IMG/VR virus record: IMGVR_UViG_3300003323_000218
Span: 1-57,791 of that record
DNA length: 57,791 nucleotides
Strand: one strand, 5' to 3'
Source of the DNA: a virus
Shown here: in pieces, positions 2,535-55,046 of the stretch
Numbering within the stretch: position 1 is the stretch's first letter
Layout: the number at the start of each line of letters is the position of its first letter
The notes under the pieces: generated by a model
Seen by the model: only the letters and a program-made list of their open reading frames with translations
Told to the model about the DNA's origin: nothing
Databases searched by the model: none
Position numbers and translations under genes: made by a program

Positions 2535-3925
2535 CCACCACACCCACCAGCGCACAAGGTGCGGATGAACTGCTGCCCATCATGTTTAACGGGAAAACTC
2601 CCATTGAAGATATGGATATTGGCCTGCTTTGCCAAATTTTGAAGAAGGACGGCCTTTTCGACGGCGACGGTCTTCAAGTCGCGTGGAATGACTTGGTGTG
2701 CTTTTACGTTGCGAACCGCCGCATCTCCACCCCAAGCACGCCGACAAACGCAAGGATCGAAGAGCTTGAAACGCTCTGCGCTGAAGCCTACCAAGTTGTT
2801 GGTGTGCTGGCAGCTGATGCGAGGCGCTTCGATGATGCCGCGGTCACAAAGGCATTAGATAACCTATATGCACAAAAGCTGGTTCATGCTGATGTGTTGC
2901 CGTTTCTGTCCGCTGAATTGAGCACACCACAGCCAGCGCAGGTGACGGACGAACCCGCGATTCGTGCGGAACTTGATCGGCTCATCAACAAGGTTGTCAA
3001 TCTAGGCTACGCATGCGGCGCTCATCCCATTCCAACGGGCGCAAATATGGCCAGTTATGACGAGCTATGCGAAAAAGCGGGCGCCGCCAACGACGAGCTT
3101 CGGGACTTCGTGCTATCCCTGCTCGCAGCTCAAGCGCCAACTGATTTGAACGGCATCGAACAATATCGCATGCAGATGGCGGGCATTTCGACTGCCGCGC
3201 TCGGCCACTGGAAGGCGGGCGATCCAATCCATCCCGATTACGACACACCGGCCCTGCGCGATGTGGCGAAGCTATACGCCAATTACGATGCGCTGCACAA
3301 GCAGGTCCACGCCGCCCAAGCAGATCAAGCAGATAGCCAGGATGCCGAGAAGGACGATCCGAGAACGGCGCATCTAGGCCATCAATCCGAGAAGCCTGGC
3401 AGCGAAACATGCGGCTTTTGCGGCGGCGACATGGCAAGCAACAAGCCATGCAGCGCTCGCGAGCACGCCCGCAACAAGGATATTCCCGACGCGGAGGTTG
3501 CTGTGTTCGGCTGTCAGATGGAAGCAGATGACGGAACAGAGCACGGCCACTGTGAGAAATGGTGCAAGCGCCCAGAGTGCCCTGTGTCGTTTAAATCTGC
3601 CGCCACCAAGGAAGCAGAGAATCTTGAACTACTGGTGGTCAATCCTAGCGGCGTCGAACTCGCGATCGAACGTCGCCCTGATGGCAAATGGCAGTTTCGT
3701 GCTAACGCTTTTGGCGACCGCCCGAGGATGCTTGATAAGGAAGTAGAGGCAGGCGGGAGCAAGGATGCGGTCGACAACATCATGAACTTGGCGGACGACT
3801 ATGCGCAAGACTTCCACGGCGCGAATGAAAGCTATTTCACCGACTCTGCCGCAAATCCTGACGCAAAGCGAAAAGCACTGGAAGCTGCTGTCCGCGCAGC
3901 CATCACATCGAAGGAACAACCATGA
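2531..3925 (+). CDS. Mosaic accessory phage protein (Ea22-like style), 464 residues
   Basis: The ATG overlaps the previous stop (ATGA). The protein looks modular: an N-terminal region to about residue 130, a helical middle (residues 140-270), a Cys-rich stretch (CGFCGGD, then CEKWCKRPEC around residues 295-350), and a C-terminal region that may be a separate DUF-type domain (LELLVVNPSGVELAIERR). Such patchwork proteins are common in accessory clusters of beta- and gammaproteobacterial phages. The function is unknown; the Cys cluster may bind zinc. Confidence 0.65.
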   Translation: MTTTPTSAQGADELLPIMFNGKTPIEDMDIGLLCQILKKDGLFDGDGLQVAWNDLVCFYVANRRISTPSTPTNARIEELETLCAEAYQVVGVLAADARRFDDAAVTKALDNLYAQKLVHADVLPFLSAELSTPQPAQVTDEPAIRAELDRLINKVVNLGYACGAHPIPTGANMASYDELCEKAGAANDELRDFVLSLLAAQAPTDLNGIEQYRMQMAGISTAALGHWKAGDPIHPDYDTPALRDVAKLYANYDALHKQVHAAQADQADSQDAEKDDPRTAHLGHQSEKPGSETCGFCGGDMASNKPCSAREHARNKDIPDAEVAVFGCQMEADDGTEHGHCEKWCKRPECPVSFKSAATKEAENLELLVVNPSGVELAIERRPDGKWQFRANAFGDRPRMLDKEVEAGGSKDAVDNIMNLADDYAQDFHGANESYFTDSAANPDAKRKALEAAVRAAITSKEQP

Positions 3926-8580: not shown

Positions 8581-9201
8581 ATGCCTAAGAAGCACGGACA
8601 CACCACAAAAAATTCGCAAAGCCCAACCTATTCATCCTATCAAAGTATGCTTTCTAGGTGCCGGAGAAAGACTCATCCGAAATACCCCTCTTATGGAGGG
8701 AGGGGTATCACTGTCTGTGAGCGATGGATAGAATCATTTCAGAACTTCCTTTTCGATATGGGCGAACGTCCTGCTGGTACTACAATTGATAGAATCAATG
8801 GGGATCTTGGCTACACCAAAGAAAATTGTCGATGGGCCACCCCTAAAACCCAGCAATCGAACATACGCTCTAATGTCAATATCACCTTTCAGGGACGCAC
8901 CCAGAACGTCTCTGCATGGGCAAAAGAGGTTGGTCTTGATGCTAGCAATCTGGCGTGGCGCTTGCGAAACGGCTGGAGCGTAGAGCAGGCTATGAACACA
9001 ATCCCACGTGTTGGAAATAGGACCAGAAAAACTGGGCAAGTCCTTATTGAGTATGCGGGGAAGACTCAGTGCATATCGCATTGGGCAAAAGAATATGGAA
9101 TTTCTAATTCACTTTTACGCCTGAGACTTAGCAAAGGATGGACAATGGAATCTGCGCTCATGACACCAAAGGGTATTTGGGTAACAAAGAAAGATCATTA
9201 A
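8581..9201 (+). CDS. HNH homing endonuclease with C-terminal repeat DNA-binding modules
   Basis: This is a 206-residue protein. Residues about 35-100 carry YGGRGITVCERW, then F-DMGERP-GTTIDRINGDLGY and NCRWATPKTQQSN, the pattern of phage HNH endonucleases. Two related C-terminal blocks (VSAWAKEVGLD…RLRNGWSVEQAM and ISHWAKEYGIS…RLSKGWTMESAL) look like helix-turn-helix repeats for target binding. It has its own promoter and a strong aggaggtcagc site. It lies antisense to the late operon and its 3' end overlaps the lysozyme gene by four bases, so it is probably a mobile insertion. Confidence 0.85.
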   Translation: MPKKHGHTTKNSQSPTYSSYQSMLSRCRRKTHPKYPSYGGRGITVCERWIESFQNFLFDMGERPAGTTIDRINGDLGYTKENCRWATPKTQQSNIRSNVNITFQGRTQNVSAWAKEVGLDASNLAWRLRNGWSVEQAMNTIPRVGNRTRKTGQVLIEYAGKTQCISHWAKEYGISNSLLRLRLSKGWTMESALMTPKGIWVTKKDH

Positions 9202-13500: not shown

Positions 13501-13591
13501 AATATCACCTCAAAATAAGTTCGCTTCATCACGTTTAATCCTGTTATTGCTGTTACAATCTGTCTTTCATGGACCATCTCAGGGTGCTTGT

Positions 13592-14107
13592 ATGGCTGAT
13601 AGAAACGTTCATCCTCTGTATTACACTTGGGCAAACATGATTCAACGCTGCGAAAATCCAAATCGCCCCGACTATAAAAATTGGGGCGGTCGAGGAATTT
13701 CGGTGTGTGAGCGCTGGAGAACGACAAATCCTCGCGGTGCAGGATTTGCGAATTTTTTGTCAGACATGGGGCCTCGCCCCGATGGCATGACCTTGGATCG
13801 CATAAACAACGATGGCAACTACGAACCATCTAACTGCAGGTGGTCTACTCGCCGCGAACAAACGCTGAATTCACGGTTCGATATATCAAAGGCAGTTAAT
13901 TCTCATGCTCAAATGAAGCGAAACATGACGCACTGCAAACGCGGTCATGAATACACACCCGAAAATACATACACATACAACGGCAATCGCACATGCAGAA
14001 CATGTAAAGCCGCTTGGGATCGGTATCTGTATCACGGCAAAAAAATACCGATTGAGGATCTTATCTACCCAATCGGCAAGCCCGGCAACCCGCACCGGAA
14101 TAAATAA
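13592..14107 (+). CDS. HNH homing endonuclease, inserted upstream of the tail fibre gene
   Basis: The start at 13592 follows agggtgcttgt; the product has 171 residues. It has the same HNH pattern as the gene at 8581 (WGGRGISVCERW, FLSDMGPRPDGMTLDRINNDG, NCRWSTRREQ), then a C-terminal Cys/His motif (HCKRGHEYTPENTY…CRTCKA) like zinc-binding DNA-recognition modules. It runs against the late genes and separates a conserved leader hairpin (14111-14130) from the fibre start. Confidence 0.85.
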   Translation: MADRNVHPLYYTWANMIQRCENPNRPDYKNWGGRGISVCERWRTTNPRGAGFANFLSDMGPRPDGMTLDRINNDGNYEPSNCRWSTRREQTLNSRFDISKAVNSHAQMKRNMTHCKRGHEYTPENTYTYNGNRTCRTCKAAWDRYLYHGKKIPIEDLIYPIGKPGNPHRNK

Positions 14108-25869: not shown

Positions 25870-26325
25870 CTAATCTCGTCTCAGATATTTGCCTCTCACG
25901 AAGCGACTCACGGATGTCTGCTCAATTTGCATATGGTCAGCTATTTTCTGCTGAGTCCAACCTTGCGAATACAAATCAATGCATTTCTTTATTTGTTCAG
26001 TCGTATATTTCATTCGCCCCCACAGACCATTAAATCTGTTCATTTTATCGGCGGTATTCTGCTGATGATTTCCTAGATAAAGATGGTCTGGATTCACACA
26101 TTTGCGGTTATCGCATTTGTGTAAAACAAGCTTTCCTTTCGGAATAGCACCAACGAATAATAGGTAAGCTACCCGATGGGCTTGGGCTTGGTTGCCATGA
26201 TAGTAAAACTTCCCATAACCGCTCCAATGGAGCGTTGATTGCCATTCATGACACCCGCTTTCTACAACTTTCACAAACTTCAGAAAACGCTGCTTTGGAT
26301 CAGACGGTGGCCTTCCCCCCGGCAT
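25870..26325 (-). CDS. HNH homing endonuclease with C-terminal helix-turn-helix
   Basis: This is a 151-residue protein. Residues 25-95 carry CHEWQSTLHWSGYGKF, AHRVAYLLFVG and LVLHKCDNRKCVNPDHLYLG (HNH_3-type with Cys ligands). Residues about 105-145 (WTQQKIADHMQIEQTSVSRFV) form a helix-turn-helix. Unlike the other two HNH genes it is co-oriented with the late operon. It sits directly behind the coat gene, a favoured site for free-standing homing genes. Confidence 0.85.
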   Translation of the reverse strand: MPGGRPPSDPKQRFLKFVKVVESGCHEWQSTLHWSGYGKFYYHGNQAQAHRVAYLLFVGAIPKGKLVLHKCDNRKCVNPDHLYLGNHQQNTADKMNRFNGLWGRMKYTTEQIKKCIDLYSQGWTQQKIADHMQIEQTSVSRFVRGKYLRRD

Positions 26326-36308: not shown

Positions 36309-36463
36309 GGCAGCCTCCGAAATGCGAAGGCCCCGCCGCAGCTAAATATCCCAAGTGGTACTTGAGACTTCGCTAACGGAAGGGCCTTTGAACTCGCGTA
36401 ACACCTGCGAGGATACAAAAAACATGGTACTTGGTGCATGACACTTTTCATAGCGCTAAATTG
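36309..36463. promoter_or_regulatory. Short non-coding region with repeats
   Basis: No gene is seen. AAGGCCC and GGGCCTT (36327 and 36382) could pair at a distance, CAAGT-GGT-ACTTG forms a local hairpin (36352-36364), and CATGACACTT occurs twice (36437 and 36465), the second at the end of the next gene. A control or processing role is possible. Confidence 0.35.
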
Positions 36464-42997: not shown

Positions 42998-43353
42998 GTT
43001 CTCGCCTGCAGTTCGCGCATCACGTCCTCCGCACTGCGCGCCACGAATGCCACGCAGCCGGCCCGCTGCGCAGCTTGGATAAATTCCGCTTGTTCTGGAG
43101 TGACAACGCCAGAGGGGCGCTTCACTTCACAAAAGATGGCGCGACCGTCGGCCATGTAGCCGCAGATATCTGACAAGCCGGGGAATCCGAACTTGATCCA
43201 TTGCGAGGCGCCGCTTTTACGCACAAGCTGGCCAGATCCGGTATTCATGCGCCAAACCTTGGCGACGGCCGGATGAAGTTCCAGCGCGCGCAGCACGGCG
43301 CGAAGGACTTGCGCCTCTTTTGGCTCAGGACGAGTAAGACGCAGCGGTTTCAT
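42994..43353 (-). CDS. VRR-NUC domain nuclease
   Basis: This is a 119-residue single-domain protein: the PD-(D/E)XK core has SDICGYMADGRAIFCEVKR (Asp, then Glu-x-Lys) after a conserved KFGFPGLSD. The early part ALELHPAVAKVWRMNTGSG is typical too. Stand-alone VRR-NUC proteins of phages cut structured DNA, such as junctions or flaps. Next to replication and Ref genes it may act in recombination. Confidence 0.85.
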   Translation of the reverse strand: MKPLRLTRPEPKEAQVLRAVLRALELHPAVAKVWRMNTGSGQLVRKSGASQWIKFGFPGLSDICGYMADGRAIFCEVKRPSGVVTPEQAEFIQAAQRAGCVAFVARSAEDVMRELQART

Positions 43354-43652
43354 CGGCCGATCCTTTCCATCACCATGGCTAACATCTCCATCTGCGTGCC
43401 GTATTTCGCCTCAAAGCGGGCCTTATTCGGATGCACAGCGATGCGCCTGAGAGGGTCGGTATCGTCCTGCTGATGATGAGGACCGCACAGCGGCAAAACG
43501 AGCTTATGGGCGCCAGGCTTCGTGCGACCATCGATGTGATGGATGGATACGAACGGATTGGTTATGCCGTCAAGCAGGCAGGCGATACAGCCGATGCCGG
43601 CCATGTCGTGCCAGAGTGCCTTTTCGGCTTTCGTTGGAGCGCGGCCTTTCAT
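43350..43652 (-). CDS. Ref-type HNH nuclease (recombination-enhancement family)
   Basis: The start at 43652 (MKGRAPTKAEKALWHDMAG) gives 100 residues. It carries IGCIACLLDG, SIHHIDGRTKPGAHKLV, LPLCGPHHQ and VHPNKARFEAKYG, the pattern of P1 Ref C-terminal domain proteins, which are RecA-dependent HNH nucleases. Position with VRR-NUC fits recombination. A TnpB element has inserted just upstream. Confidence 0.85.
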   Translation of the reverse strand: MKGRAPTKAEKALWHDMAGIGCIACLLDGITNPFVSIHHIDGRTKPGAHKLVLPLCGPHHQQDDTDPLRRIAVHPNKARFEAKYGTQMEMLAMVMERIGR

Positions 43653-43690
43653 GCGGCTACCCTCACCGCAATTGGGAGAGCCGCATTCGA

Positions 43691-43720
43691 TTGAATGTGG
43701 TCGTAAAGTGAGGATATAAT
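43691..43720 (+). promoter_or_regulatory. Sigma-70 promoter of the RHH-TnpB cassette
   Basis: TTGAAT (43691-43696), 18 bases, TATAAT (43715-43720, perfect). Transcription would begin at about 43727, at or next to the RHH ATG (43728), so the mRNA may be leaderless. Confidence 0.7.
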
Positions 43721-43741
43721 TGTGTGCATGAAGCGCACACA
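43721..43741 (+). promoter_or_regulatory. Perfect inverted repeat over the RHH start codon
   Basis: TGTGTGC (43721-43727) and GCACACA (43735-43741) surround ATGAAGC. It covers the expected start point of transcription and the ATG. It could be the RHH protein's own operator, or an RNA hairpin hiding the start codon. Confidence 0.55.
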
Positions 43742-43859
43742 TATATTCCTTCCAGAGCCGGTCATAAATAGACTAAAGGCTCTTTCCGAAAAAACTGGAC
43801 TGCCCGTCGCCGAACTGATTCGGCGCGCCATTGATGAATATCTGAAAAAGCAAAAGTGA
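43728..43859 (+). CDS. Ribbon-helix-helix (CopG-type) regulator, 43 residues
   Basis: It reads MKRTHIFLPEPVINRLKALS then EKTGLPVAELIRRAIDEYL: a short beta strand, helix, turn (TGLPVAE), helix, the minimal RHH fold that binds DNA as a dimer through the paired strands. Its TGA overlaps the GTG of tnpB (GTGA), so the two are translationally coupled. Probably represses the shared promoter or cooperates with TnpB. Confidence 0.75.
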   Translation: MKRTHIFLPEPVINRLKALSEKTGLPVAELIRRAIDEYLKKQK

Positions 43860-44917
43860 TTCTTGTCTATCGTTACCGCGTGAAGTCGCTTAACGGCTTG
43901 CTGAACAAGCAGGCTCGCGCGTGTAACTACGTCTGGAATTTCTGTAACGACACACAGAAGCACGCGATTAAATGGGGAAGGCTTTGGCCGAGTTGTTTTG
44001 ACCTGAATAATCTGACAGCCGGAAGTAGTAAGGAACTGAGCCTGAATGCAAACACAATCAATCAAATTTGCAGGCAATATACGAGTTCGCGAAATCAGAA
44101 TAAACGGCCATACCTTCGATATCGTGGCAAAAGGTCTCTTGGTTGGATTCCGATTAAAGGCTGCGATCTGAGGCGCGAGGGAGATGCATTCCGCTTCTAC
44201 GGAAACACTTTCCGCGTCTTCAATAGCCGCCTGCTCCCTGACGGTAAGATCAAGGATGGCACGAACTTCTCTCAAGACAGTCGTGGAAACTGGTTTTTGA
44301 ACATAGTTATTGATGTTGCGGAAGCTGAGCGGCGCGAACCCGTTCGCGGTATTGGCATTGACTTGGGCCTGAAAGATTTCGCAACGCTGTCCACTGGCGA
44401 GAAGATTGGGAATCCGCATCACTTCCGCGAACTTGAGGAAAAGTTGGCGACGGCACAGCGCGCCCATAAGCGCCGCCAAGTCACCAATATCAATTCCCGT
44501 ATTGCCAATGCGCGGCGCGACTTCCACCACAAGCTCTCGACCCGCATCATTCGAGAGTTCGATTACATCGCCGTGGGCAACGTGAACGCGGCAAGACTCG
44601 CCAAAACCAGCATGGCGAAGTCCGTTCTTGATGCAGGCTGGTCGTCCTTCCGAGACATGCTCCGCTATAAAGCGATTGCGCACGGCGCTTGGTTTGAAGA
44701 GGTGAATGAGCGATTTACCACGCAGGCGTGCTCGTGCTGTGGAGTTATCTCCGACAGTAGTCCGAAAGGTAGGGCCGACCTGAATAAGAGGCTTTGGACT
44801 TGTGGCGAATGTGGCGTTACGCATGATAGGGATCAGAATGCTGCTCTCAATATCTTGAAAAAGTTCAGTCTCGGCTGCGGACATGCAGCCCCTGCTCAGG
44901 GAGTCCTAGCCCTTTAG
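43856..44917 (+). CDS. tnpB: TnpB-family RNA-guided nuclease homologue (copy 1)
   Basis: This is a 353-residue protein with GTG start. N-terminal part: VYRYRVKSLNGLLNKQARAC and YLRYRGKRSLGWIPIKG. RuvC-I has Asp in GIGIDLGLKDFATLSTG; RuvC-II region reads FDYIAVGNVNAARLAKTSM, with Gly where Glu is normal; RuvC-III has HDRDQNAALNILKK with Asp. The zinc ribbon is CSCCG…CGECG. TnpB is guided by an RNA from the element's right end. Whether this protein cuts is uncertain because of the missing Glu. A copy sits at 52863. Confidence 0.85.
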   Translation: MILVYRYRVKSLNGLLNKQARACNYVWNFCNDTQKHAIKWGRLWPSCFDLNNLTAGSSKELSLNANTINQICRQYTSSRNQNKRPYLRYRGKRSLGWIPIKGCDLRREGDAFRFYGNTFRVFNSRLLPDGKIKDGTNFSQDSRGNWFLNIVIDVAEAERREPVRGIGIDLGLKDFATLSTGEKIGNPHHFRELEEKLATAQRAHKRRQVTNINSRIANARRDFHHKLSTRIIREFDYIAVGNVNAARLAKTSMAKSVLDAGWSSFRDMLRYKAIAHGAWFEEVNERFTTQACSCCGVISDSSPKGRADLNKRLWTCGECGVTHDRDQNAALNILKKFSLGCGHAAPAQGVLAL

Positions 44918-50727: not shown

Positions 50728-51633
50728 ATGTATATCAGCCTGACCGAACGCCGCACCATCACCGCCACCCTGCCCGATCGCACGATCACCGACATGGAGA
50801 TCGAAGACGAGTGGAACGGCCTGACAAAGCTGGTCCACCCGGCATCTGGCCTGTACCTGATCGTGATGCGCGAGGAAGGTCTGATCATCGACGGCTCGAA
50901 GTCGCTTATCGATGATCTGCTGCGTCCCGCAGCGCCGACCGCCGAGCCCGGCTACGTCGTCTTCCCCGAATCGAAGTTGCCGTGCGGACTGGTCGTTCCG
51001 GCGTTCCAGGTGGCGCAGTACATGAACTGCGTCGGCGATGACGGCAAGGCGTACGTCTCGGGCACCGAAGTTCCGTGCGTGAACATCAATTTCGCTACTG
51101 CGATTCAGGCATGCAAGAACGCCGGCGGCGGTCTGATCACCGGCAGCCAGCATCTTGCTCTCGCCTGGGACATCGTGAACCAGCCGGCGAACTGGACCGG
51201 CGGCGAAGTCGGCAAGGGTCACGTCTACCGTGGCCTGCACAAGGGGACCCTGTCATGCGCGCAGCGCAACGACTACGAGCCGAGCGATCCGGAAGAGCGC
51301 CGCTGGCATGTGCTGTCGACCGGCGACCGTATCTATGACTTCGCCGGGCATCTCTGGAGCTGGATGATCAACGACCTCGCCGGAAATGTCGACGGCCTCG
51401 CCGGAAAGATCCCTGCCGACTCTCCCTATCTCACGACCGCATCTCAATACAGCCAGGCGCAAGGCATGGGCTATCGCCCTGACGGGGCACGTGATTGGTC
51501 CAGCTATGCGCTCATCCGCAGCGGCTGCTGGGGCTCCGGCTCGTGTGCCGGCGTGTTCTTTCTCGGCTGCGACTGGCCGGTCAACTGCTACGACTACATC
51601 GGGTTCCGCTGCACCAAGCCAGTAGGTCTCTGA
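50728..51633 (+). CDS. C-type-lectin/FGE-fold protein resembling a DGR variable protein
   Basis: This is a 301-residue protein. Residues 1-75 are a distinct N-terminal domain. Residues about 85-300 are formylglycine-generating-enzyme/CLec fold: HVYRGLHKG, RWHVLSTGDRIYDFAGHLW, then GYRPDGARDWSSYALIRSG. The last 44 residues (51499-51630), with GVFFLGCDWPV and YIGFRCTKP, have the form of a DGR variable region: conserved frame residues separated by NNC codons (TGC, GGC, TCC, CTC, GAC, GTC, AAC, TAC). A hairpin follows the stop. No reverse transcriptase or template is visible. It may bind variable ligands. Confidence 0.75.
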   Translation: MYISLTERRTITATLPDRTITDMEIEDEWNGLTKLVHPASGLYLIVMREEGLIIDGSKSLIDDLLRPAAPTAEPGYVVFPESKLPCGLVVPAFQVAQYMNCVGDDGKAYVSGTEVPCVNINFATAIQACKNAGGGLITGSQHLALAWDIVNQPANWTGGEVGKGHVYRGLHKGTLSCAQRNDYEPSDPEERRWHVLSTGDRIYDFAGHLWSWMINDLAGNVDGLAGKIPADSPYLTTASQYSQAQGMGYRPDGARDWSSYALIRSGCWGSGSCAGVFFLGCDWPVNCYDYIGFRCTKPVGL

Positions 51634-52530: not shown

Positions 52531-52790
52531 TGAATATCGCCCACGAAAATCGATTCGAGCGCATCCAGGCTGTTGAGAGAGCCGCTACCGAGTGTCTGCA
52601 AGGCTGTCCCGTGGTTGACGCGTCAGGCAAAAAATTGGGAAGCGTTGACTCGTTATTGATCGACCGGAAGAAGCGCGAACTGCGTTACATCCTGCTTGGG
52701 AAGGTGGCTATTCCGTGGAGGGCAATGTATTTCGATTGCGCGTTGAAACGTCTCGTTTATTACACGCATAGGAGCAATCATGGCATTTGA
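52530..52790 (+). CDS. PRC-barrel-like small protein
   Basis: This is an 86-residue protein: CPVVDASGKKLGSVDSLLID, RKKRELRYILLGKVAIPWRA, MYFDCALKRLVYY. The alternating beta pattern and 'V-D-x-x-G-x-x-LGSV-x-x-x-x-ID' match PRC-barrel domains, which act in protein interaction. TAATG-type overlap with the gene before it. It overlaps the start of the next, disrupted gene. Confidence 0.65.
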   Translation: MNIAHENRFERIQAVERAATECLQGCPVVDASGKKLGSVDSLLIDRKKRELRYILLGKVAIPWRAMYFDCALKRLVYYTHRSNHGI

Positions 52791-52866
52791 CCGCGACTCT
52801 TTCGTAACGCTGGCGTGTTTCCTGTGCGCTGCTGCTGGATTGTATTTTGACATCTTCCCACCCTAA
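52780..52866 (+). pseudogene. Small membrane-protein gene split by TnpB copy 2 (5' part)
   Basis: It begins MAFDRDSFVTLACFLCAAAG then LYF. At 52849 it enters the TnpB element and stops soon. Joining 52848 to 53937 gives a 42-residue frame ending …YEMDKAFFLIAILPLLLKA, with two hydrophobic parts and in-frame stop at 53996. The 3' remnant is at 53937-53996. Confidence 0.65.
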
Positions 52867-53936
52867 AGGGGCGGGACTCCCTGAGCAGGGGCTGCATGTC
52901 CGCAACCGAGACTGAAACTTTTCAAGATATTGAGAGCAGCATTCTGATCCCTATCATGTATAGCGCCACATTCGCTACAAGTCCAAAGTCTCTTATTCAG
53001 GTCGGCCCGACCTTTTGGACTGCTGTCGGAGATAGCTCCGCAGCACGAGCACGCCTGCGTGGTAAATCGTTCATCCACCTCCTCAAACCAAGCCCCGTGC
53101 GCAATCGCTTTGTAGCGGAGCATGTCTCGGAAGGACGACCAGCCAGCATCAAGAACAGACTTCGCCATGCTGGTTTTGGCGAGTCCGGCCGCGTTCACGT
53201 TGCCCACGGCGATGTAATCAAACTCTCGGACGATGCGCGTGGAGAGCTTATGGTGGAAATCGCGCCGCGCATTGGCAATGCGGGCGTGAATATTGGCAGC
53301 CTGGCGCTTCTTTCTGGCGCGCTGCGCAATTGCGAGCCTTTCCTTAAGTTCGTAGAAATGGCGCGGGTTGGCGATCTTCTCGCCCGTGGACATGGCGGCG
53401 AAGTCCTTCAATCCGAGATCAATACCGACGCCTTGTATGGGCTCGCGGCGATCAGCCTCTGCAACCTCAATGACGATGTTGAGAAACCAATTGCCGCGAC
53501 TGTCTCGGGAAAAGTTCGTGCCGTCCTTGATCTTGCCTTCCGGCAGGGGGCGGCTGTTGAACACGCGGAAGGTATTACCGGCAAAGCGGAAGGCATCACC
53601 TTCGCGCTTCAGGTCGCAACCCCTAATTGGAATCCATCCAAGGGACTTTTTGCCACGATAACGAAGGTACGGCTTTTTGTGCTGGCTTCTAGACTTTGCA
53701 TACCGCAAGCAAATTTGTCCAATTGTGTTTGCATTCAAACCAAGTTCTTTGCCGCTCCCTGCGGTCAGGTAGCTAAGGTCAAATCCAGTCAACCATTTTC
53801 GGTTCCATCGCAGAGCATCCTTTTGTCTGTCATTGCAATAGTTCCAGACAAAGTTGACCGCACGCGCCTGCTTATTCAGCAAGCCGTTCAGAGACTTCAC
53901 GCGGTAACGATAGACAAAGATCACTTTTCGAATCAC
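52849..53936 (-). mobile_element. Minimal TnpB element, copy 2 (tnpB plus right end)
   Basis: Removing these 1,088 bases restores an in-frame small membrane protein gene. On the - strand it starts exactly at the tnpB GTG and ends at GAAGATGTC. It has no RHH gene, no promoter and no TnpA. The right end shares the hairpin and GTC(AA) end with copy 1. The guide would start AAAATACAATCCAGC. Ends may shift by a few bases. Confidence 0.65.
52863..53936 (-). CDS. tnpB: TnpB-family RNA-guided nuclease homologue (copy 2)
   Basis: This is a 357-residue protein, close to copy 1 along its whole length (same GIGVDLGLKDFA-like RuvC-I block, here GVGIDLGLKDFAAMSTG). It has FDYIAVGNVNAAGLAKTSM again with Gly at the RuvC-II Glu site, CSCCG…CSECG ribbon and HDRDQNAALNILKSF with the RuvC-III Asp. 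It lacks the upstream RHH gene. A GTG further in (after IRK) aligns with the start of copy 1. No own promoter is seen; it runs against the surrounding genes. Confidence 0.8.
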   Translation of the reverse strand: MIRKVIFVYRYRVKSLNGLLNKQARAVNFVWNYCNDRQKDALRWNRKWLTGFDLSYLTAGSGKELGLNANTIGQICLRYAKSRSQHKKPYLRYRGKKSLGWIPIRGCDLKREGDAFRFAGNTFRVFNSRPLPEGKIKDGTNFSRDSRGNWFLNIVIEVAEADRREPIQGVGIDLGLKDFAAMSTGEKIANPRHFYELKERLAIAQRARKKRQAANIHARIANARRDFHHKLSTRIVREFDYIAVGNVNAAGLAKTSMAKSVLDAGWSSFRDMLRYKAIAHGAWFEEVDERFTTQACSCCGAISDSSPKGRADLNKRLWTCSECGAIHDRDQNAALNILKSFSLGCGHAAPAQGVPPL

Positions 53937-53996
53937 TACGAAATGGATAAGGCGTTCTTTCTGATAGCAATTTTACCTCTGCTATTAAAGGCATAG
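53937..53996 (+). pseudogene. 3' remnant of the small membrane-protein gene
   Basis: In frame with the 5' part when the TnpB element is removed: TAC GAA ATG GAT … AAG GCA TAG, giving YEMDKAFFLIAILPLLLKA. It is hydrophobic and ends the original gene. Confidence 0.55.
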
Positions 53997-54007
53997 GAAG
54001 GGGAAAA

Positions 54008-54175
54008 ATGAAGAGACTCCACAGCAAGCAATACGCCGGCACTCGGCACATATGCAATCCGGATCGCGAATACGTCCACTCAACGAAGACAGACATTCGC
54101 GTGACGCTGGATCGCGTGCGGGCAGAGTTGGCGACGGATACGAAGAAGCAGCCCAAAGTTAGGCGCATCAGATGA
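54008..54175 (+). CDS. Small basic protein (55 residues)
   Basis: It begins MKRLHSKQYAGTRHICNPD and ends KKQPKVRRIR, strongly basic. aggaaggggaaaa gives a very strong ribosome site. It is probably a nucleic-acid-binding small phage protein. The next tiny frame overlaps its stop. Confidence 0.55.
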   Translation: MKRLHSKQYAGTRHICNPDREYVHSTKTDIRVTLDRVRAELATDTKKQPKVRRIR

Positions 54176-54243
54176 CCCGCCATCAAACATGCCTCGCTGG
54201 CCGCCTACTGGCGATGTTGCGCCGCATTTGGAGGCGGTCATGA
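54172..54243 (+). CDS. Possible 23-residue frame
   Basis: ATGA overlap with the gene before it gives MTRHQTCLAGRLLAMLRRIW. It ends overlapping another short frame (54240-54287). Too short to be certain. Confidence 0.25.
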   Translation: MTRHQTCLAGRLLAMLRRIWRRS

Positions 54244-54261
54244 CGAATGTCAACAAAGTGC

Positions 54262-54290
54262 TTGACGGAAATCAGAATGATTGCTAAATT
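54262..54290 (+). promoter_or_regulatory. Sigma-70 promoter of the structured RNA
   Basis: TTGACG (54262-54267), 17 bases, TAAATT (54285-54290). Transcription would start at about 54297, just before the first helix arm. Confidence 0.6.
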
Positions 54291-54296
54291 GAGCGT

Positions 54297-54416
54297 GTCT
54301 AGCTTTGGTCGGCGGACAGTATGCAAGCAGAGGCCGATTCGGTTTCTGCGCTCCAAGGAAGAAATTCCACCGTCCGCCGACCAAGCGAGGAGCGCAGAAA
54401 ACCCAATCGGCTTTTT
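54297..54416 (+). ncRNA. Structured RNA with two interleaved helices and a terminal T-run
   Basis: Arm 1a (54305-54317) pairs perfectly with 1b (54372-54384) over 13 bp: TTGGTCGGCGGAC. Arm 2a (54333-54354) pairs with 2b (54389-54411) over about 22 bp with one bulge: GCCGAT…TGCGCTCC. The order is 1a-2a-1b-2b, so both can coexist only as a pseudoknot, or they switch. TTTTT (54412-54416) follows 2b like a terminator. It precedes the HNH gene at 54453. Confidence 0.6.
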
Positions 54417-54452
54417 GCGTTTCAATTAACTGAAATTGATTGGAATCGCAAG

Positions 54453-55046
54453 ATGTCGAAGATAGCCAAAAAACACGCCGTTGCTTATATTCTTGATGCC
54501 GGTCTTTACCCTCAGGATATTTATCTTAAGCGCGGAATTACGCCGAGAAAAATAGTGGTGTTAATTGGCATTCGATATATCGATGGATGCCACATCAAAA
54601 AGTTTGATCTTGAAAAAGCCATTGAGCATTGGCACGACACTGGAAGCATCTATTATCCAATTATTCCAACGCAAAAAGATAACGCGTCTTTGCGGGCGAT
54701 GCGTGATATGCGATTGCTAAAATCAGCCACCAATGCAGCGGCAAGAAATCTAAAAAATAAACATGAGGTAGTTGACGATTTTTACTCCAGCAAAGAATGG
54801 AGAAATCTCCGGTATCTCGCCTTGTCTCTTTGCGAGGGGAAATGCACGTGTTGCGGTCGAAGTGCGGCAGAGCATGGAATTGTTTTGCATGTTGACCATA
54901 TCAAGCCGAGAAGCTTATATCCAGAATTGTCTCTTCAATTGAAAAACCTGCAGATCCTGTGCGAAGACTGCAATATCGGGAAAAGCAATCTTGACGATTT
55001 TGATTTCAGATCGGCGCAAGCAAAAAAAGCCCTGAGCGAAGCTTAG
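54453..55046 (+). CDS. HNH endonuclease behind the structured RNA
   Basis: The start at 54453 (MSKIAKKHAVAYILDAGLY) gives 197 residues; a frame extends upstream through the RNA but is unlikely to be translated. C-terminal HNH: CEGKCTCCGRSAAEHGIV, LHVDHIKPRSLYPELSLQL and LQILCEDCNIGKSN, with zinc Cys and H-D-H. N-terminal part is a helix-turn-helix-like module (YLKRGITPRKIVVLIGIRY). It is clearly A+T-richer than its neighbours, suggesting recent gain. Confidence 0.8.
   Translation: MSKIAKKHAVAYILDAGLYPQDIYLKRGITPRKIVVLIGIRYIDGCHIKKFDLEKAIEHWHDTGSIYYPIIPTQKDNASLRAMRDMRLLKSATNAAARNLKNKHEVVDDFYSSKEWRNLRYLALSLCEGKCTCCGRSAAEHGIVLHVDHIKPRSLYPELSLQLKNLQILCEDCNIGKSNLDDFDFRSAQAKKALSEA

Follow-up and report, generated by a model that had tools for sequence, protein, structure and literature searches.

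At positions 54262–54416 of IMG/VR record IMGVR_UViG_3300003323_000218, a viral sequence of 57,791 nt analysed over its whole length (hereafter, the window), a promoter is followed by four arms that pair in an interleaved manner, and an HNH endonuclease gene lies downstream. Is this locus a regulatory leader of the HNH gene, a gene for an RNA in its own right, a site that acts as DNA, or a product of chance? From its sequence, the locus is likely to be a gene for a small phage RNA of about 110–120 nt. Its parts, and other features of the window, are listed in Table 1.

Table 1. Features of the RNA locus and of the surrounding phage genome (window coordinates).
Feature	Position	Strand	Remarks
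Sigma-70-like promoter, TTGACG-17-TAAATT	54262..54290	+	9/12 consensus matches; hexamers TTGACG (54262–54267) and TAAATT (54285–54290), 17 nt spacer
Predicted transcript start	~54297	+
Arm 1a, TTGGTCGGCGGAC	54305..54317	+	RNA 5′ segment; perfect complement of 1b
Arm 2a	54333..54354	+	perfect core TTTCTGCGCTCC (54343–54354)
Small hairpin, GGAA-GAAA-TTCC	54357..54368	+	between 2a and 1b; from sequence and MFE fold
Arm 1b	54372..54384	+	inside 2a:2b hairpin loop
Arm 2b	54389..54411	+	perfect core 54389–54400
T-run, TTTTT	54412..54416	+	directly after 2b
Helix 1	54305–54317 : 54372–54384	+	13 perfect bp
Helix 2, core	54343–54354 : 54389–54400	+	12 perfect bp
Helix 2, extension	54333–54339 : 54405–54411	+	GCCGATT : AATCGGC, beyond a small asymmetric internal mismatch
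HNH endonuclease gene	54453..55046	+	197 aa; probable start ATG 54453; downstream neighbour
DUF3800-VIII RNA	36327–36388	−	Rfam RF03075, 58.7 bits
TnpB-like gene	43856–44917	+	OrfB_IS605 / Cas12f1-like
TnpB-like gene	52866–53936	−	OrfB_IS605 / Cas12f1-like
Protein with sulfatase-modifying-factor-like region	50728–51633
HNH-endonuclease-like ORFs	8581–9201; 13547–14107; 25870–26325; 43350–43742		by eye

The preliminary description, made from the letters of the window, had reported a sigma-70-like promoter, arms in the order 1a-2a-1b-2b, a perfect helix of 13 bp, a near-perfect helix of 22 bp and a closing TTTTT, and all of these were recovered. The promoter also has a TG before its -10 element, which sits 14 nt upstream of 1a. 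Helix 2, with its 12-bp core and the extension past the internal mismatch, comes to about 21 pairs in all, and in sequence 2a:2b with its T-run resembles a long-loop intrinsic terminator. The protein encoded downstream matches Pfam HNH (1.1e-8) and PHROG 144; its gene probably lies outside the RNA unit, as a neighbour.

Interleaving of such long stems had been judged improbable by chance, and the statistics bear this out. In the window, 1a:1b and 2a:2b are the sole interleaved pair of perfect stems of at least 9 bp. The null models were first-order Markov; in 150 windows generated in this way the smaller interleaved stem reached 10 bp five times, 11 bp once and 12 bp never (12+12 bp in 0/150), against 13+12 bp, interleaved and behind a promoter, in the observed window. 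The 169-nt strand gave a folding z-score of −5.6.

Neither blastn against phages and plasmids nor an exact-pattern scan of viral contigs detected a relative of the window RNA, and Rfam searches at relaxed thresholds (of the window, locus L035 and the class members described below) returned matches at chance level only. Copies of either arm elsewhere in the window also occur at chance level, and no trans target was found there. The covariation check proposed at the outset gave a divided result: arms with differing letters still pair in other phages, whereas for the window RNA itself no relative was found among phages, plasmids and viral contigs. With no sequence match to start from, loci for comparison were gathered via neighbouring proteins instead.

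Elsewhere in the window, the DUF3800-VIII RNA is a second structured RNA in this phage. The two TnpB-like genes are similar to each other, and uncultivated phages commonly carry relatives of them at ~70% identity. The protein with the sulfatase-modifying-factor-like region has a C-terminus that resembles, by eye, the variable region of a diversity-generating retroelement. Given the further HNH-like ORFs recognised by eye, the window phage seems rich in them.

Architecture and neighbouring genes in other phages

Loci were collected by their neighbouring proteins (HNH, ERF and TnpB) and then scanned for interleaved stems, so that sampling partly began from HNH genes. Over 1.9 Mb, in which a few contigs are duplicated, interleaved stems that were both at least 10 bp long were found 12 times, against 1.2 expected. 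A common layout was seen in the strong matches: a promoter, 1a close to or at the predicted start of transcription, then 2a, 1b and 2b, where 2b mostly closes an intrinsic terminator and 1b lies within the 2a:2b loop. The terminator loop is thus complementary to the RNA's 5′ portion. The class was defined by the arm order 1a-2a-1b-2b, a helix 1 of at least 7 bp, a 2a:2b hairpin with a T-run, and 1b in the loop. A detector of this strict layout gave 24 distinct matches against 1 in shuffled sequences, and 15 against 0 when the promoter score also had to be 9 or higher.

Measured from the first base of 1a to the last of 2b, the RNAs are 89–132 nt long (n = 16 members). Many members terminate in a classical terminator, and in those outside the window the spacing between the -10 element and the RNA that follows it is nearly constant. 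The window locus (54305–54416) has the architecture that defines the class, together with a sigma-70-like promoter whose -10 is shortly upstream of 1a; as its RNA has no sequence relative, its membership rests on architecture and not on descent. The layout may be convergent, with more than one origin.

Some interleaved stems were rejected. The pair GGCGATTATCTG of L035 was tried as 1a:1b; the promoter falls between those arms, and the true element begins TGTCGAGTCC. The stems in L122 and L128 lie within coding sequence and those in L125 come after a tRNA gene, and these were regarded as chance. Two other arrangements were noted. In a Chitinophagaceae genome (L120, 4232–4308), interleaved stems of 12+11 bp lacking a T-run lie directly downstream of an HNH-repeat gene and are convergent with a gene reading like an XRE-type regulator. 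In L017 (878–985), a member RNA is followed immediately by an apparent tRNA gene.

Carriers among isolates include Vibrio phages 1.276.O, 1.178.O and vB_VnaS-L3, Xanthomonas phage Kintu and Stenotrophomonas phage S72, of which 1.276.O, 1.178.O and Kintu were reached via HNH relatives in isolates. When the 1.276.O region was used as a query, 317 phage records matched, many by a 53-nt promoter segment only, and the RNAs fetched behind that segment were of several types. The strict threshold was passed by 13 of the 22 isolate loci, against 0 in five shuffled sets, and two loci fetched once the rule was fixed (L326 and L327, from 1.265.O and 1.029.O) both carry the element. Vibrio phages K44, K62 and K11 (L320, L322 and L323) share this promoter and layout, their helix 1 being 11 bp long (TCTTGACGGGA/TCCCGTCAAGA), and their long 2a:2b hairpin has no T-run.

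The next gene encodes an HNH protein in the window, 1.276.O, 1.178.O and Kintu. Phages jenny 12G5 and vB_VnaS-L3 have a DNA methylase gene in this place, 1.054.O has one for a calcineurin-like phosphoesterase, 1.067.O a tailspike gene and S72 one for a pyrophosphohydrolase-like protein. Other members precede genes of unknown function, and in several uncultivated phages the neighbouring gene is convergent with the RNA. HNH genes are frequent neighbours, in a sampling biased toward HNH. Since the neighbours vary or converge, the RNA would be a gene of its own and not an HNH leader; its independence of HNH, like the shared architecture, is established by comparison of the sequences. Between the RNA terminator and the HNH gene, phages 1.276.O and 1.178.O have ~300 nt of nearly identical noncoding DNA (3385–3680 in both L301 and L302), which is possibly a second structured RNA.

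Hypervariability and co-replacement of the matched arms

The GTGTGGC family (n = 10) was retrieved from viral contigs by the pattern TGTGGCA..CGGCAG and aligned (alignment A3). Its RNAs are ~94% alike outside the arms, and divergence within 1a and 1b is 7.7 times that of the remaining RNA (0.472 vs 0.062). Pairing between a 1a and the 1b of the same RNA always extends over 7–9 bp, against mostly 3–5 with the 1b of other members. For example, L082 has GCTGAGT/ACTCAGC where L090 has GAACGAAGA/TCTTCGTTC, and the rest of both RNAs is almost identical. The arms diverge, yet each 1a matches its own 1b, so that helix 1 behaves as a hypervariable, co-varying module. Helix 2 also shows co-variation (TTTTGTTGGGGC with GCCCCAACAAAG in L296, TTTAGGTGGGGC with GCCCCTCCTAAG in the others) and tolerates G-U pairs. 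A covariance model of the family (R1) matched L304 (2e-13) and L226 (6e-11), and the window gave no match to it at E ≤ 5. In A3 members such as L279, a short inverted repeat (GTCGGTG ... CACCGAC) encloses the whole RNA unit, extending beyond the terminator.

Among the Vibrio phages, the own 1a:1b pairings of seven RNA types sum to 55 bp, a value that, out of 5040 permutations, only the true assignment attains. A compensated pair distinguishes 1.276.O (GTCGAGT/ACTCGAC) from F89 g1, 199E37-1 and vB_VnaS-L3 (GTCGTGT/ACACGAC). Phages 1.276.O and 1.178.O have the promoter and downstream flank in common and carry different RNA sequences between them, with both helices kept. Conservation of both helices, and hypervariability and co-replacement of 1a/1b, are established in this way in two families. 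The arm pattern may reflect diversifying selection, and part of it could be explained if template switching between inverted repeats had homogenised the arms.

Proposed mechanism and alternatives

The preferred explanation, given a probability of roughly 0.55, is that the locus encodes an independent small RNA of the phage whose recognition pair, 1a/1b, can be exchanged. Members of the class are predicted to be transcribed from individual promoters, and most of them to end at an intrinsic terminator belonging to the same unit. The 2a:2b hairpin of this terminator would expose a loop segment, 1b, complementary to the 5′-end segment 1a, and phage lineages would repeatedly swap this recognition module with its self-complementarity retained. 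Arm 1b may then serve as an antisense element on 1a, either in cis, by pseudoknot formation, or in trans, where the target would be this same RNA made by a sibling or co-infecting phage. In the latter case, phages with the same pair would recognise each other and those with different pairs would not; such recognition between phages is suggested as the use of the RNA with low confidence. More doubtful than the preferred explanation is the full proposal of an undescribed, widespread class of phage small RNAs in which the swappable self-complementary pair provides a protein-independent self/non-self system, acting in trans between co-infecting phages.

Helices 1 and 2 can be present together in cis only as a pseudoknot. 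By estimated geometry, the linkers suffice for this in A3 and are strained in the 1.276.O type (L301), where 11 nt would run along a 25-bp hairpin, which makes trans pairing between RNA copies a real option. A purely structural pseudoknot would shield the 5′ end and stabilise the RNA against decay, its arms drifting neutrally because pairing alone counts. This is possible, if rather unlikely: pairing is indeed retained despite sequence change, and the loop lengths of several members permit the cis form, but the wholesale replacement of arms in RNAs that are otherwise so alike goes beyond what neutral pair drift would lead one to expect, and the strained L301-type linker is a further difficulty.

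A switch between a terminator (2a:2b) and an alternative helix (1a:1b), controlling the HNH gene, had been put forward in the preliminary description. In such a leader, 1a:1b would first block 2a:2b, and 1b once freed would allow the terminator to form and turn HNH off. In HNH loci where the RNA is found, it does lie upstream on the same strand, and the HNH start follows 36 nt past the T-run in the window and ~14 nt (L035) and ~18 nt (L025) past the hairpin. Near-balanced folds were found only in the window (−61.1 vs −55.9), L237 (−33.4 vs −31.9) and L199 (−31.4 vs −32.7), whereas in 9 of the 11 members tested 2a:2b is stabler than 1a:1b by more than 9 kcal/mol, and a balanced switch is therefore not a common principle. 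Many phages, moreover, have the RNA before other genes or convergent to their neighbour, and no ligand-binding or leader-peptide element was seen. The switch is improbable as an account of the locus and fails as a general rule; the near-balanced folds of the window leave room for a local switch there.

It is decidedly improbable that the element works as DNA, with the inverted repeats as sites for protein binding, recombination or homing and the RNA fold as a by-product. HNH homing-type genes often adjoin it and some members (A3) have the extra enclosing repeat, but the near-fixed -10 distance, the T-run on one strand and the tolerance of G-U pairs in helix 2 indicate RNA. An IS605 end or TnpB guide RNA was rejected, as tnpB runs on the opposite strand and ends (3′) ~1.4 kb from the RNA, and none of 65 TnpB loci gave a strict detector match. 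Chance pairing in the window, unconnected to the phage RNA class, is very unlikely: its RNA has no sequence homologue and large data do yield long arms somewhere by chance, but the probability of 12+12 bp is well below 1% per window, and the locus also has a promoter, a T-run and the layout seen at independent loci.

Known systems and significance

In the CI immunity of P4 (seqA/seqB), a promoter-proximal segment is complementary to a hairpin-loop segment of an RNA from the same transcript, and this pair sets specificity; CI is released by processing of a longer leader, and its target is the operon that lies downstream. The phage RNA described here also has a 5′ segment matching a loop segment, but 1b is located in the hairpin of a terminator, and many members lack a downstream gene in the same orientation. 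The c4 antisense RNA of P1/P7 has loop segments complementary to the same transcription unit, with heteroimmune variants (PMC12197685). The loop segment here is likewise complementary to its own transcription unit; it differs in forming one pair, not two, and no ant/icd genes were seen. The Rfam C4 covariance model matched neither the window nor the members. By analogy, the window-class RNA may possibly act in trans as P4 CI or P1 c4 RNA do.

Other comparisons are more distant. RydC-type sRNAs (PMC4337610) are also short, with a terminator and a pseudoknot involving the 5′ region, but RydC is chromosomal, has a conserved seed and a different layout, and lacks hypervariable matched arms. The type III antitoxin ToxI (PMC5086642) resembles the locus in its promoter, pseudoknotted RNA, terminator and nuclease gene. 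Here, in contrast, there are no tandem repeats (the direct repeats sought as the mark of a type III toxin–antitoxin system were not found in window 52700–54500), and the downstream gene varies and is not a ToxN-type endoribonuclease. The HEARO/IscB omega RNA is similarly a structured RNA upstream of an HNH-containing gene, but the neighbouring HNH protein has the HNH domain alone in Pfam, not RuvC plus HNH, and Rfam HEARO gave no match to the window or the members. The interleaved-helix phage RNA fits no RNA family found in Rfam or the open-access literature, in agreement with the initial view that no known family has this layout; searches of open-access papers yielded no account of it, and one may exist elsewhere.

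If the preferred explanation is true, an unannotated small RNA gene would be common to phages of Vibrio, Xanthomonas and Stenotrophomonas and to many uncultivated phages, and it would account for part of the blank, long noncoding gaps beside phage HNH genes. One short arm pair would change much more quickly than the remaining RNA with complementarity kept, a pattern that often marks a recognition code, and the natural variants present in cultured phages (1.276.O vs 1.178.O; 1.276.O vs F89 g1) would allow this code to be tested directly.
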